Both the position numbers and the translations under genes were made by a program. Of a stretch of DNA of 30,772 bases, positions 1 to 9,002 are shown piece by piece. The notes beneath the pieces were generated by a model. That model made no database searches. It saw nothing but the letters and a program-made list of their open reading frames with translations, and was not told the origin of the DNA. Each line of letters starts with the position of its first letter. Within the stretch, counting starts at the first letter, position 1. Source of the stretch: a virus; the IMG/VR virus record IMGVR_UViG_3300035070_001783, positions 1 through 30,772 of that record; one strand, 5' to 3'.

Positions 1-968
1 TTGTTTCTAGTTTCTACTTTACCATTGAAGTATTGTATCCGATCTATTTTAAACGCTGCGTTAGATATATCTCTCGCATCATTCATGTACTCTTGTGCAA
101 ACTTATTAACTAGACCAGCTTCGATAAACTCTCTTTTCTTTGCTGCTAACTTCTTTAAAGAGAATTGGTCTTTCCAAATAGACTTACCATCTTCTATTGC
201 CCTCTTAAATGTTACTGCCCAAGGATAATCTCTACCTTCTTCCTGAGCTTTCTTGTTTCCATCTACTACTGCCTGTAAGAAACTATCAAAATGTACTATT
301 GTGCCAGCTAACCATATCCAACCCTCTCTACCCGGTGTTTCTTCTAGTGCGGGATACACTGTTGATACGATCCATTTTTTAATATCCGCTCTACGCTCTG
401 GCGTTTTAGTATTTAACTCTGATTCAAAGTCATCTAAGATGATACCAGTATAACGAACATCTACTTCTGCACGACCCCTAAGTCTTTGTGAAGTACCTTT
501 TGCTATTAACCTATCTCCTTTGGGAGTTACAATATCTTTTTCTGTCCAACGCTTTCCCGCTGCACCTCCATCTAAATTACCAAAGTAGTACCGAAGACGT
601 TTATTCATTTCAAAATGATTACGTAAATACTTTAAATGGTCAATAGACTGACTTTGTTCTTCGGAGACCCATGCAATAAAGTGCTGTTCATCATCTCTTG
701 CAAATACAAGTTTATGCATAATGGCTGCTTTAGATAAGATCGACTTACCAAAGCCCCTAGGCATAATGATACAACTACGGCTGCCGGGTTTAGATGTGAT
801 TAGTTTGTCTGCTACATCGTAATGAAACGCTGGAGACTTAGACTTTTTAAGAAAGTCATTTGGTAAGAAAGCCCTTCCAAAGTAAATAAGACTTTTATAG
901 GACTTGGCTAATACCTCATCCCGCTCTTTCATTTCAGATGGAGATGGATTAATATTAAAATTGTCCAT
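1..968 (-). CDS. terL: Terminase large subunit, ATPase part (3' end outside window)
   Basis: Motor ATPase and nuclease that packages DNA into the procapsid. The 322 visible residues hold the ATPase domain: FHYDVADKL (about 48-56) before a variant Walker A, PRGFGKS (70-76); Walker B GIILDDFE (175-182), with D179/D180 binding Mg and E182 as likely catalytic acid; and the AGT coupling motif (221-223). The RNase H-like nuclease domain must lie left of the window. Start ATG at 966-968 shares its A with the stop of the preceding 49-aa gene (TAATG), and no good ribosome site precedes it, so translation is probably coupled. It follows the small terminase, the usual phage order. Late gene. Confidence is high from the motif set. 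Confidence 0.93.
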   Translation of the reverse strand, partial: MDNFNINPSPSEMKERDEVLAKSYKSLIYFGRAFLPNDFLKKSKSPAFHYDVADKLITSKPGSRSCIIMPRGFGKSILSKAAIMHKLVFARDDEQHFIAWVSEEQSQSIDHLKYLRNHFEMNKRLRYYFGNLDGGAAGKRWTEKDIVTPKGDRLIAKGTSQRLRGRAEVDVRYTGIILDDFESELNTKTPERRADIKKWIVSTVYPALEETPGREGWIWLAGTIVHFDSFLQAVVDGNKKAQEEGRDYPWAVTFKRAIEDGKSIWKDQFSLKKLAAKKREFIEAGLVNKFAQEYMNDARDISNAAFKIDRIQYFNGKVETRN

Positions 969-1117
969 TATTTGCGTTTTAAAGACTTATTTGTTTTAAA
1001 TGATATGTTGTATAGACTATTACCTACTTTAATCCTTTTAGGTACTGTATAGCTCCAAATAGAGCTAGTCTGTGTATCCCAATAAGTACTGTTAACCGTT
1101 ACTGCTTGTATCACCAT
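968..1117 (-). CDS. Small hypothetical protein between terS and terL (49 aa)
   Basis: Unknown function. The frame opens inside the last 26 bases of the small terminase gene and closes with TAATG on the large-terminase start. An AAGGA ribosome site lies 8 nt before its ATG, better than that of terL. The product is rich in Ser/Thr/Tyr/Val (IWSYTVPKRIKVGN in the middle) with a basic C-terminus (KTNKSLKRK), suggesting a small beta-rich fold. There is no signal peptide, membrane segment or catalytic motif. The exact fit between neighbours and the strong ribosome site argue it is real. It may also serve to couple terL translation. Confidence 0.72.
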   Translation of the reverse strand: MVIQAVTVNSTYWDTQTSSIWSYTVPKRIKVGNSLYNISFKTNKSLKRK

Positions 1118-1865
1118 TTGTTAATTCCTTTTTCTTTTCACTTAACATGCCCTGCTCAAATGCTTTTAGTTTCTCTTTACTAAAGCCAGTAAACTCCTGT
1201 ATCAGTGCAATAGACTCTGATTTCTTCTCTGTATTAAGCATTCCTGATATCTTCATTAATGTTTCTAGTGCTCTAAGCTTATCATTATCTTTTACATCTG
1301 TTTTATCGACAACATCCTTAGTGCTTTCTAGTAAATACCTTTTGGTAATACCAACATCTGCCATTAACTCTTCTATTTCTTTATCCACTTGATCCCTCAC
1401 TGTTTTACTTTTTAATAATAGTTTTGATTTACGCCTAGCATCCTCAGAGTTTGTTGTTTTAGGATAGGCTTTGATATATGCACTTTCTGGGTCTAGTCCC
1501 ATTGCAATGTATTTAGAGAATATCTTTTTCTGTTTGGTCATGCCGCCATGTATTCTAGAATCATAGCTATGTCTTTTTACAAAACGGTAAAGACTATCTG
1601 TTATATCTCCAACTAAAGTAGTGCTTTTTCTAACTGTAATCATTCCTATTACAGTTCTAATGTATTTTTCTTCAGACTTATTACCTTTCATAGTATCCTT
1701 TAATAATACTTGAACTATTTTACCATCATCTGATAAACACCACTGACCTTGTTTGGCTTCTCTCCAGTCTTTAATTAGTTTTTCTGTAGGGTGTGCTGTG
1801 CGAAACTCTGCTTCGCTTTCATAAGCATAGTGCTTAACACCCTTTATGATTCTTGAGAGTGCCAC
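1092..1865 (-). CDS. terS: Terminase small subunit
   Basis: DNA-recognition subunit of the packaging motor. The middle of this 257-aa protein (about 110-205) carries the pattern of Terminase_2-type small subunits: TKQKKIFSKYIAMGLDPESA, an AYPKT helix-turn-helix segment, then RRKSKLLLKSKTV and a coiled oligomerisation region with a LRALETLMKISGML-like helix. The N-terminal ~100 residues are an extra domain I do not recognise, and the C-terminus is charged. The start is GTG, overlapping the previous gene's stop as TAGTG. No ATG precedes it in frame. It sits directly before the large subunit on the late strand. The family call is good, but residues that contact the pac/cos site cannot be named. 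Confidence 0.8.
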   Translation of the reverse strand: MALSRIIKGVKHYAYESEAEFRTAHPTEKLIKDWREAKQGQWCLSDDGKIVQVLLKDTMKGNKSEEKYIRTVIGMITVRKSTTLVGDITDSLYRFVKRHSYDSRIHGGMTKQKKIFSKYIAMGLDPESAYIKAYPKTTNSEDARRKSKLLLKSKTVRDQVDKEIEELMADVGITKRYLLESTKDVVDKTDVKDNDKLRALETLMKISGMLNTEKKSESIALIQEFTGFSKEKLKAFEQGMLSEKKKELTNGDTSSNG

Positions 1866-2101
1866 TAGTTGGGATTATTTAAACTATACTCGTCTATTTC
1901 TATGAGCTCTAACTCAGGCATGTTATTCACCCTATATACTAACTCAGCCATTAAGCTGACGTTTCTTGAATTGGGGTCTATAAGATCTAATATTCTAAGC
2001 TCACTGGATATCTCTCTACATCTTTGTATGTTTGTAAAGACATCTTTTATTTCATAATCACCAATTAAGGCTTTCTCAAACATTGTTCTTTCTCTATCCA
2101 T
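1865..2101 (-). CDS. Hypothetical protein upstream of terS (78 aa)
   Basis: Unknown. A small acidic helical protein (MDRERTMFEKALIG at the N-terminus, ELELIEIDEYS near the end). It is first in the late leftward run and joins terS by TAGTG. I chose ATG 2099-2101. An in-frame TTG at 2134 would add 11 hydrophobic residues but falls inside a palindromic site. Neither start has a Shine-Dalgarno sequence, so the mRNA may be leaderless or translated inefficiently. Its position suggests a packaging or late-regulation role, by inference only. Confidence 0.6.
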   Translation of the reverse strand: MDRERTMFEKALIGDYEIKDVFTNIQRCREISSELRILDLIDPNSRNVSLMAELVYRVNNMPELELIEIDEYSLNNPN

Positions 2102-2117
2102 ATTTAAATTTAATAAT

Positions 2118-2136
2118 AACTTGACAAGTTGCAACT
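2118..2136. promoter_or_regulatory. Overlapping palindromes upstream of the terS run
   Basis: A 13-nt inverted repeat AACTTG-A-CAAGTT (2118-2130) overlaps a 10-bp palindrome AGTTGCAACT (2127-2136). This gives three related half-sites (AACTTG/CAAGTT/CAACT) just before the first late gene. The arrangement is typical of an operator for a small dimeric repressor. No repressor is identified in the window. Confidence 0.35.
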
Positions 2137-2180
2137 ATATATAATAATATTATCTATCCCCCCCTATTTAGCCCGGTTGA

Positions 2181-2358
2181 ATTTATAATAGTACTATAGT
2201 ATATATAGTATAGTAGTATATATAGTATAGTAGTATTATTATATATTATATATATTATTATATATTATATATTATATATATATATTATATATATTATATA
2301 TATACTATATATAGTATAGTATTATATAGTATAGTAGTAAGTAGTATATATAGTATCC
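2181..2358. repeat. A/T-only low-complexity tract with TATATAGTATAGTA direct repeats
   Basis: From 2234 to 2304 there are 71 bases with no G or C, almost all TA steps and TAT units. On both sides lie copies of TATATAGTATAGTA: two in tandem at about 2200-2234 and further ones at about 2307-2357. The tract is nearly self-complementary, so it can extrude cruciforms and melts easily. Each repeat contains TATAGT, also the -10 sequence of two nearby promoters. It could be a DNA-unwinding element. Confidence 0.75.
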
Positions 2359-2470
2359 GCAGCTATATATTATAGTACCCGCTCTGGTAACAGATCCAAA
2401 ACTTTCAAAAAATTTAAAAAAAATATTTTAGTATGTGTCTTTCTCTTTTATTATACAGGTATACCCCCCT

Positions 2471-2492
2471 AAACCTATTTGAGATTAGGTTT
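2471..2492. other. Perfect 7-bp inverted repeat AAACCTA/TAGGTTT
   Basis: Stem 2471-2477 with 2486-2492, loop of 8 bases, just after a run of six C. No T tract follows on either strand, so it is not a standard intrinsic terminator. Possible operator or RNA hairpin. Confidence 0.35.
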
Positions 2493-2521
2493 CTTGGGTT
2501 GAAAAAATCAAAAATAATAAG

Positions 2522-2625
2522 GTATAGATAAATCTATACGTTATATATAATTAAATAAATAATAATGTATATCTAAAGATATACGTTATATATAATTAAA
2601 TAATAATGTATAGCTAAAGCTATCC
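2522..2625. repeat. Three tandem ~43-bp repeats, each with an 18-bp palindrome
   Basis: Palindromes lie at 2522-2539 (GTATAGAT-AA-ATCTATAC), 2567-2584 (GTATATCT-AA-AGATATAC) and 2608-2625 (GTATAGCT-AA-AGCTATCC, one mismatch). Start-to-start spacing is 45 and 41 bases. The linker GTTATATATAATTAAATA and AATAATG are shared. The outer GTATA and the AA centre are constant. The inner arm changes on both sides together, so pairing is kept. A weaker fourth copy (TAGCT-GG-AGCTA) is at 2698-2709. Confidence 0.85.
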
Positions 2626-2631
2626 ATATTC

Positions 2632-2660
2632 ATAACGTCGCAAAAAAAAATAACGTCGCA
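2632..2660. repeat. Paired ATAACGTCGCA direct repeats
   Basis: Two exact copies, 2632-2642 and 2650-2660, separated by a run of A. The core AACGTCGCA occurs again at 3961-3969 on the other side of the DUF932-like gene. All three are in non-coding DNA, as expected of a protein-binding site. Confidence 0.65.
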
Positions 2661-2697
2661 GTTTTTTATTTATTACAGGATTGAATTTTAAGGTGGG

Positions 2698-2727
2698 TAG
2701 CTGGAGCTATACAGAGATAACTCCAGC
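2698..2727 (-). terminator. Overlapping hairpins downstream of the DUF932-like gene
   Basis: A 7-bp stem GCTGGAG/CTCCAGC (2700-2706 with 2721-2727) begins 17 bases past the stop of the leftward DUF932-like gene. A second hairpin, TAGCT-GG-AGCTA (2698-2709), shares bases with it, so only one can form at a time. No clear U tract follows on the minus strand, so termination would be partial or factor-assisted. Confidence 0.35.
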
Positions 2728-2743
2728 CATTTGAGGTAAGGTA

Positions 2744-3742
2744 CTAGTTAGCGGAATCTAAGTCTAGTGTGTATTGATTTTCATCTAACTCCATTTTAGG
2801 TGATAAGATATCATTAGCGAAAGCAATACAACTATCTACAATTTTACCATTGTTATCAAAGTCGGCTTTTTTAATCTTATCCCTATGAGTAGTGATATAA
2901 GTTCCAGCTTGAGCTAAACCAAATAATGTCTGATTATTATCAGCAAAGTATTTAGTCATCATCTGACCGTATACGCCATCACCTAGAGCTTTAACATCAA
3001 GATATTTATTTCTGTAAAGAGCTAACATATCTGAATCTACATCAATAGCTAACTTATTAATATTAGCCTCCATAGTATTCATAAATGTGTCGCTTCCCTT
3101 ACCTACCATTGCCTGAGCAAAAGCAATAACCTGACTATCCCAATCAATATTACTTTGTCTATGTGAGAAAGAAATAGAGTTAGTAAGGTTTTTAGATATC
3201 CAACCATTTTCACATTCTAAGATTCTAGCGTACCTCATAAAAGCAGCTTTTAAGCTTCCATCATAACTATTAGTAACTTCATAGACTTCCTCTAGAGTAG
3301 CCCCAACACTAGCTAATGCTCTACTAGTATGAGGCTTTACCCACGCTTCTCTGAATTGAGAACCATTACACCATATAGATTGTAGTTTCCAATCACCATC
3401 TACTTTAGACCTAGCCTCAGCAAACCTATTAGATAGTGTCTTATTATCTATTATAAGATATTGCTCAGATACTTCACCTAGAGACTTTTTCTTATCATCT
3501 TCAAAGTAGATATTATACTTACCAAAATGATATCCAGTCTCTTTATCTACTTGAGGAACTTTAGTTACCTCTCTGAATGGGTCAATATTACCTGCTGTAT
3601 TTTTATCCCTAGTTTGTTCTAATACCTCAGAACCTTCAGAGATTGCTGAAGATATATTTATTGTAGAATTTATCTCCATTTCAGGATTAAGGTTAGATTC
3701 TGTAATATTACTATCATTATTAACTACTTGTAAATTGCTCAT
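2744..3742 (-). CDS. DUF932-like phage protein
   Basis: 332 aa from the chosen ATG (3740-3742), which has GAAAGGA 8 nt upstream. An earlier in-frame ATG at 3790 would lie only 4 nt past the promoter -10, so it is rejected. The N-terminal ~55 residues are Asn/Ser/Glu-rich and disordered. The rest resembles DUF932 (phage/plasmid-like protein): NSYDGSLKAAFMRYARILEC, an ENGW segment and a conserved H in SFSHRQS, followed by a helical C-terminus. DUF932 proteins are common near phage replication genes, and their biochemical role is not settled. It is flanked on both sides by repeat-rich non-coding DNA and has its own GGAACT-type promoter, which suggests early expression and a possible role at an origin (inference). 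Confidence 0.62.
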   Translation of the reverse strand: MSNLQVVNNDSNITESNLNPEMEINSTINISSAISEGSEVLEQTRDKNTAGNIDPFREVTKVPQVDKETGYHFGKYNIYFEDDKKKSLGEVSEQYLIIDNKTLSNRFAEARSKVDGDWKLQSIWCNGSQFREAWVKPHTSRALASVGATLEEVYEVTNSYDGSLKAAFMRYARILECENGWISKNLTNSISFSHRQSNIDWDSQVIAFAQAMVGKGSDTFMNTMEANINKLAIDVDSDMLALYRNKYLDVKALGDGVYGQMMTKYFADNNQTLFGLAQAGTYITTHRDKIKKADFDNNGKIVDSCIAFANDILSPKMELDENQYTLDLDSAN

Positions 3743-3794
3743 ATTATGAGTCCTTTCATTTTCTTGTTTTATTTTGAACGTCTTGTTCATATAT

Positions 3795-3823
3795 ACTATA
3801 CTATATAGTTCTGTAAAAGTTCC
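3795..3823 (-). promoter_or_regulatory. Promoter of the DUF932-like gene (GGAACT-N17-TATAGT)
   Basis: On the minus strand GGAACT (3823-3818), a 17-base spacer, then TATAGT (3800-3795). It is the only leftward member of the promoter family seen in the early arm. It predicts a transcript start near 3788 and a leader of about 45 bases before ATG 3742. Confidence 0.68.
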
Positions 3824-4210
3824 ATCTTTTTTGAATTATTTTAAATTATTTAAAAATAAATTATTTCGTAAAAACAATAGATCGTAGAATATTTATTTTA
3901 TTGTAGAATATATATATATTATGTGCACGCACGTAGGTAGGTGCTTCGCTCAAATTACACAACGTCGCAATATTTGTGCACGTTCGTAGATTATTTATTT
4001 ATATATAAGCACGCACGCACGTACATAGCCTGTAATAGTACCGCATTTGTACAATATCGCACGAATTACAGAGTTTTAGACGTGTTTAGTAATCAATTAC
4101 TTACTACGTACTTGCATACATTTATATAATATTTATTTATTATACACACAAGACCAACACACAAAGCACAGAACCCCCCGAAATATATTACATATTTTTT
4201 TATGTTTTTT
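3824..4210. other. Divergent intergenic region with short direct repeats
   Basis: Separates leftward and rightward transcription. Three copies of YGTAGAWTATWTATWT begin at 3883, 3902 and 3985. A GCACG-type repeat lies at 3923-3935, 3976-3988 and 4009-4023 (core GCACGCACGTA or GCACGTTCGTA). One AACGTCGCA is at 3961-3969 and a C6 tract at 4174-4179. I see no credible gene. A 62-codon frame at 3941-4129 has a GTG start, no ribosome site and a composition that follows the repeats. Candidate origin, enhancer or operator cluster. Confidence 0.5.
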
Positions 4211-4239
4211 GGAACTTTCTTAATACTTATTAGTATGAT
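4211..4239 (+). promoter_or_regulatory. First early promoter (GGAACT-N17-TATGAT)
   Basis: GGAACT 4211-4216, 17-base spacer, TATGAT 4234-4239. It is preceded by a T run and followed about 30 bases later by the first early gene. It places the start of the rightward arm near 4246. Confidence 0.68.
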
Positions 4240-4270
4240 ATATATAAACAAAATAATAGGAGTTTTTAAA

Positions 4271-4492
4271 ATGAGTATACAAGATAAATATATTACAGAA
4301 TATGAATGTAGTTTTGGAGAGGAATCAATTTTTACAATAATTAAAAGAGGTTCGGAACTACTTGCAGGTGGTGTAACGAATGCGGGATTTTATGAAAATT
4401 ATAATTGGGAGTACGACAAAGACTTTACATTAGATGAAAATTTAAATGATTTTATTGATTATATAAATGAATCAGAAATCAGATTAATTTAA
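4271..4492 (+). CDS. Hypothetical early protein (73 aa)
   Basis: First gene of the rightward arm. The start at 4271 has AGGAG at a good distance and lies downstream of the promoter. An upstream in-frame ATG at 4202 would precede the promoter and is rejected. The product is acidic (many D/E in the last 25 residues, FTLDENLNDFIDYINESE) with aromatic residues and no cysteine. No family recognised. First position and small size suit a host-takeover factor (inference). Confidence 0.7.
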   Translation: MSIQDKYITEYECSFGEESIFTIIKRGSELLAGGVTNAGFYENYNWEYDKDFTLDENLNDFIDYINESEIRLI

Positions 4493-8026: not shown

Positions 8027-8335
8027 ATGTATAACGAAATTAAATTAACAAGTGAGGATAAAAAGAAAATAGTATCCGAACTATTACCCATATATGAGAA
8101 AGTAAAAAAGAAAACTCATATAGAAGAATATCATCATATTACTTTAGATAATGGACTAGTAGTTGATGGATGGATTAGAAACGCTAGTGGTTGGGAATTA
8201 GAAGAGGATGATGGGAAAGTTTGGTGTGCAGTATATGAGACACATGAAGAAGAAAAGGGTTTTTTAGTTACTGACTCATCTCATCATACTATTTGGGAGT
8301 TTGACATAAATAAAGAAAGGAAAAAATATGTATAA
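8027..8335 (+). CDS. Hypothetical protein (102 aa)
   Basis: Good GAAAGGA site, one base after the 35-aa frame. A charged N-terminal helix is followed by a beta-rich middle (ITLDNGLVVDGWIRNASGWE) and a C-terminal strand pair containing SSHHT. Overlaps the next gene by 8 bases. Unknown. Confidence 0.66.
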   Translation: MYNEIKLTSEDKKKIVSELLPIYEKVKKKTHIEEYHHITLDNGLVVDGWIRNASGWELEEDDGKVWCAVYETHEEEKGFLVTDSSHHTIWEFDINKERKKYV

Positions 8336-8618: not shown

Positions 8619-8821
8619 TGAAAGTGAGTGAATTAATAAGTAGAATGTTAGTTATTTGTGAAAGAGGAGATGTTTCACCTGATGAAGTTGAAGTGTTATT
8701 TAGACCACATTATGATTCAGATGAGTATAATGTAAACTACGCACACGAAGACCTATACTATGAAGAAACAAATAATATATTAACTAGTATAATGTTACTA
8801 GAAGATGATAGCGAGGTATAA
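8618..8821 (+). CDS. Conserved small phage protein (67 aa)
   Basis: GAGGAG site and TGATG coupling fix the start at 8618. The helix-strand pattern KVSELISRMLVICERGDVSP followed by DEVEVLFRPHY resembles the small phage family in which a short helix precedes a decimated 'DPDAEVxV' strand. Function unknown. Acidic. Confidence 0.64.
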   Translation: MKVSELISRMLVICERGDVSPDEVEVLFRPHYDSDEYNVNYAHEDLYYEETNNILTSIMLLEDDSEV

Positions 8822-8822
8822 T

Positions 8823-9002
8823 ATGAGAATAGAAAATAAAATAAGTAAGATAGCTGATTGGATTTCTAATGAATCACAAGACAGATACGAAGAAGTAGAA
8901 TGGCTTTTGTATTCTGTTTACCAACCTAAGAAATCAGGTCTGACACGAGATATAGATGATGATTATGAATCTGTATTGAATTACAAAAAAGAAAGGAAAT
9001 AA
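8823..9002 (+). CDS. Hypothetical protein (59 aa)
   Basis: ATG 8823 is two bases past the previous stop. GAGG lies inside the preceding gene's last codons. Two helices, the second with VEWLLYSVYQPKKSG. Basic end. Unknown. Confidence 0.62.
   Translation: MRIENKISKIADWISNESQDRYEEVEWLLYSVYQPKKSGLTRDIDDDYESVLNYKKERK

Follow-up and report, generated by a model that had tools for sequence, protein, structure and literature searches.

An accessory array of small, covarying palindromes, possibly RNA hairpins, in the putative early/late control region of an uncultured marine phage family

Introduction

Lambda nut and HK022 put are leader-RNA elements of early phage transcripts, with small hairpins in the leader. 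Phage operators and iterons are tandem palindromic or repeated sites in intergenic control regions, and where such repeats are read as fixed protein words, symmetrical change of the inner bases is not expected. The hairpin promoters of the N4 virion RNA polymerase are repeated short hairpins whose stems combine fixed positions with variable ones that need only pair, and they require a giant virion polymerase, a purine loop and a G:C closing pair (PMC4496689). The DGR target hairpin or cruciform has a stem of 7-10 bp, free in sequence if paired, and a conserved 4-nt loop; its stem is GC-rich, its loop is of the GRNA type, it lies beside the variable repeat and it needs a reverse transcriptase (PMC3240598).

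Here we compare these systems with a palindrome array in a 30,772-base virus record, a fragment of an uncultured phage (the whole stretch analysed is called the window).

Results

Comparison with described systems

As in N4 promoters, short hairpins recur in the array and some of their stem positions are fixed while others vary, but its stems are AT-rich and its 4-nt UAAA/UUUA loops (TTTA/TAAA as DNA, in all copies but one) are not short purine loops closed by G:C. No gene for a giant (~3,500 aa) virion RNA polymerase was found, the largest ORF of a 42.8-kb genome with overlapping ends being 1,332 aa; a search for PF00940 gave no match, but neither did its positive control. The likeness to DGR targets extends to stem length, the conserved 4-nt loop and a stem free to vary if paired, whereas the other DGR features differ: no palindrome copy has a GC-rich stem with a GRNA loop, and reverse transcriptase (PF00078) was absent in four genomes, with a positive control. 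Dispersal of the REP/IS200 type was not seen, the palindromes occupying one site per genome, and Y1 transposase (PF01797) was absent with its control positive. A scan for intrinsic terminators (GC-rich stem plus U tract) found none at the array, and an Rfam search of the region returned no family at or above the gathering score. Because the defining features of N4, DGR and REP elements fail and Rfam has no match, we assign the array to no named family and place it broadly among the small hairpins or palindromes that act in cis in phages.

Compensatory base-pair changes, as looked for in structured RNAs, are present, in few events. The array would share with nut and put the small hairpins in a putative early-transcript leader, but here they are tandem, near-identical and AT-rich, in 0-3 copies. 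With operator arrays and iterons it shares tandem palindromic sites in an intergenic control region, but its inner bases change symmetrically.

The array and its surroundings

An earlier note on this DNA had described three 18-base palindromes in tandem with inner arms that differ and still pair, and this description is accurate (Table 1). The palindromes start 45 and 41 bases apart, are joined by near-identical AT linkers and sit in the 610-base gap that separates the DUF932-like gene from a small ORF. In terS sense they read GTATAGA-TTTA-TCTATAC (copy 3), GTATATC-TTTA-GATATAC (copy 2) and GGATAGC-TTTA-GCTATAC (copy 1), the last with its outer mismatch. Positions 2399-2743 hold two perfect 7-bp/4-nt palindromes, compared with 0.016 on average over 2,000 dinucleotide shuffles, of which not one reached two. 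Between the first two 45-base units there are five differences, four of which form two mirrored, compensated pairs; given five random substitutions, equal mirroring arose by chance in 62 of 1,000,000 copies. The dense TACTATATA-type repeats at 2190-2370, upstream of terS, are present in the relatives read, and many contigs stop there.

Table 1 Features of the window around the palindrome array.
Feature	Positions	Strand	Remarks
terL	3-968	-	cut by window edge
terS, terminase small subunit gene	1092-1865	-	
Small ORF	1865-2134	-	
Promoter-like TTGACA-N16-AATAAT	2121-2148	+	points toward array; TTGACA in 14 of 15 sequences compared
Conserved core CAAC..TAA..GGGGGG	2464-2501	-	family-wide; mosaic boundary
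Palindrome copy 3, terS-proximal	2522-2539	.	GTATAGATAAATCTATAC; inner pairs GA/TC on terS-sense strand
Palindrome copy 2	2567-2584	.	GTATATCTAAAGATATAC; inner pairs TC/GA; + strand RNA has 12-bp stem, UAAA loop
Palindrome copy 1	2608-2625	.	GTATAGCTAAAGCTATCC; inner pairs GC/GC; one outer mismatch, kept in all relatives
GCGACGT box adjoining copy 1	2635-2641	-	kept in all palindrome-bearing relatives
Second GCGACGT box	2653-2659	-	
13-bp 3'-UTR hairpin of DUF932-like gene, 6-nt loop	2698-2729	-	directly after stop codon; contains 2698-2709
DUF932-like gene	2744-3790	-	
GCGACGT box, far side of DUF932-like gene	3962-3968	-	

What the note had taken for a weaker fourth copy (2698-2709) is really one arm of the separate hairpin that follows the DUF932-like gene. 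Two compensatory pairs distinguish the alleles of this hairpin, which has G-U pairs when read as DUF932 mRNA. Some GC-richer hairpin follows each DUF932-like allele sampled, whichever way the gene points, so this one is probably a usual structure of an mRNA 3' end. Its two alleles, GGAG/CTCC and TGGG/CCCA, switch among phages that are otherwise very similar at this place (window and L002-L008).

The neighbouring gene was correctly called DUF932-like, with 26 of 29 family members matching PF06067 (best E 1.5e-9). A structural model of its product (mean pLDDT 75, pTM 0.68) gave no confident match in a fold search, human Rad52 appearing only at E ~0.3 to 1. The gene is found in either orientation relative to terS (window and L010-L050), which looks like module exchange because the two orientations carry alleles of only about 30% identity; a recent inversion was rejected on the same grounds. 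Three GTGCACGCACGTAG-like repeats lie in the divergent region upstream of the gene (3920-4023), and small plus-strand genes of early type begin at 4202.

Covariation among relatives

Relatives were collected by protein search: 44 terS loci at first, later a wider set of which 80 were kept, together with 52 DUF932-like loci. Across 16 contigs we identified five inner-arm types, every one complementary: GC/GC, TC/GA, GA/TC, AC/GT and an all-AT form with a 3-nt loop (L045). Each main type is a single base-pair change away from GC/GC, and half-changed inner pairs occur in no copy. The TTTA loop and outer arms are fixed except at position 2 of copy 1, where G or A stands opposite A in every relative. 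The alignment proposed in the earlier note bore out the covariation: on six distinct copies, pairing cells reached 92.7% and the covariation score was 0.210 (shuffled mean, 0.049), with none of 500 shuffles as high on either measure. Counts of double changes were weaker alone, two pairs and three cells being matched in 58 and 11 of 500 shuffles, respectively. Of 36 occurrences of the outer frame outside the family, taken as a control, two had complementary inner bases, both all-AT; inside the family, 13 of 13 did. Orthology among copies is blurred by unit loss and duplication, and the covariation, while real, is small, amounting to about four independent base-pair changes.

Selection on pairing, as the note had argued, is upheld in part: change on both sides is confirmed in relatives, but position 2 of copy 1 is unpaired in every one, so pairing is not needed throughout. 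The mismatched arms that the note had named as evidence to the contrary are seen everywhere at this outer position of copy 1 and never as half-changed inner pairs. That the arms match despite a change of letters suggests that the elements may work as folded hairpins. Symmetrical change can also arise from template switching in DNA replication, a route that the note had not raised and a known mechanism by which one event yields paired changes (PMC8794818). It acts on short inverted repeats, and quasi-palindrome correction by this route would match the arms with neither selection nor function. Such a mutational by-product is rather unlikely here, however, given that the mismatch at position 2 of copy 1 has gone uncorrected in all relatives, the orientation of the loop is never flipped and the outer bases are nearly invariant in sequence.

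Distribution and mosaic structure

The element was found only in one uncultured marine phage family, at a single site upstream of terS. The exact copy 1 pattern was found in 17 viral contigs, all within this family, while its three matches in bacterial genomes are about what chance would give (about 4 by arithmetic). No comparable hairpin arrays were found in other terS-bearing relatives by a wider-family search, and neither blastn of 1000-4300 against cultured phages nor tblastn with DUF932 returned a match. Arrays of three copies occur in the window and in L018, L030, L031, L032, L043 and L045, of two in L004, L010-L013 and L038-L042, and of one in L037; many relatives have none. Presence of the array is scattered over the terS tree, with at least eight changes, four of them forced by well-supported branches. 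Near relatives lack whole arrays, so the element is accessory.

In L030, a 42.8-kb genome with overlapping ends, copies occur at this site only. The contig (L233 start, L235 end) has 42,844 bases and is listed as linear, but its ends overlap by roughly 150 bases, which probably makes it a complete genome with a circular map. We also considered contig ends near the AT tract as genome ends; since the ends of L030 overlap, they are more likely assembly breaks.

Identity profiles reveal exchange of the left module near the GGGGGG-centred core, left modules differing where right modules are near-identical, and on this pattern the array appears to move together with the left module. The GCGACGT boxes, found next to copy 1 and beyond the DUF932-like gene in array-bearing phages, are absent from near relatives lacking the array, but the near box is found in some distant array-free relatives, so that the array looks like a later insertion between two older elements. 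In a gene-presence comparison for a partner protein, no phage gene clearly tracked the array. ORFs 8027-8335 and 8805-9002 were present in two array-bearing genomes and none of the array-free genomes examined, a sampling too thin to weigh.

Folding and the putative leader RNA

Isolated 18-mers fold modestly (RNA, -3.3 to -4.9 kcal/mol; DNA, -2.1 to -2.7 kcal/mol), and the triloop form of L045 reaches -2.0 kcal/mol as either. Folded entire as + strand RNA, 10 of 11 arrays are more stable than shuffled sequence at z below -2 (z -2.8 to -7.4), and the + strand beats the - strand in 9 of 11, the exceptions being L004 and L040. This is explained in part by a C-A mismatch that adjoins many examples of copies 2 and 3; on the + strand it reads as G-U, and stems reach as much as 16 bp (L032). 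Flanking mismatches of these copies turn into G-U in 13 cases on the + strand versus 3. G-U pairs of copy 1 favour the - strand, which counts against a + strand RNA and makes the strand preference a lead, not proof.

The same palindromes could fold as DNA, as a cruciform or single-strand hairpin serving, for example, as a replication origin element. The surroundings are AT-rich, GC skew switches near 3.5-4 kb, and N4 promoters and DGR targets are small DNA hairpins able to act. This is nevertheless highly improbable: cruciform formation, raised in the earlier note, would have to start from AT-rich arms of 7-8 bp where 10 bp were calculated for 50% extrusion (PMC3834812), and neighbouring TATATA tracts should open first. 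Single-stranded DNA folds have only -2.0 to -2.7 kcal/mol, and many relatives do without the array. The suggestion of an origin fares no better, its sole pointer being a position at the strand-bias switch that transcription direction also explains.

Our favoured reading, to which we assign a probability of about 40% from sequence comparison, is that the small hairpins form an accessory array of the early/late control region and most likely act at the RNA level. The region would divide an early arm (DUF932 side) from a late arm (terS onward), and pairing would matter since the element would work when folded from a single strand, most likely the window + strand as RNA. The array would then lie in the long leader of transcripts from the promoter-like site, where copies 2 and 3 of several phages would pair as unbroken stems of 12 to 16 bp with a UAAA loop. 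L045 reads TTGACT there, and the surroundings of the conserved TTGACA change among sequences. Shuffling of the gap gave TTGACA in only 13 of 1,000 cases; an 11-of-12 promoter match arose in 50 of 1,000, so that the match is weak taken alone. Many relatives carry the DUF932-like gene in sense, downstream of the site, which would put the array within a leader of several hundred bases. Against a leader RNA, the predicted + transcript of window-type phages would run antisense to DUF932 before entering the plus-strand early genes. A host protein, or one common to the family, might further bind the hairpins and tune read-through or stability of the leader.

It also counts against hairpins that loop-proximal pairs vary and outer pairs are fixed. 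Most hairpin-binding sites show the reverse pattern, and a fixed outer part with a variable centre is typical of operator half-sites. A close rival of the RNA hairpin array, possible if on the unlikely side, is therefore a set of tandem operators for a dimeric DNA-binding protein, with GTATA/TATAC half-sites, a loosely contacted centre and one to three sites tuning early/late transcription. Nearly fixed outer five base pairs around a variable centre in all copies fit operators better than RNA hairpins, and the variable copy number and the position in the early/late control region agree with them. Operators, however, leave the joint change of both centre halves unexplained; asymmetrical centres are never seen, and a spacing of 41-47 bp does not hold helical phase.

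Discussion

If the array does act as RNA hairpins, a bolder proposal can be framed, which we regard as doubtful: hairpins with identical loops and variable copy number in an early leader would switch or protect transcription across the early/late boundary and be exchanged between phages as a module, making them a new kind of leader-RNA element. The locus offers a small natural case for telling selection on base pairing from homogenisation by template switching, in a family of marine phages among whose close relatives we found none in culture. Should the hairpins act in leader RNA, they would mark the early/late switch of this family.
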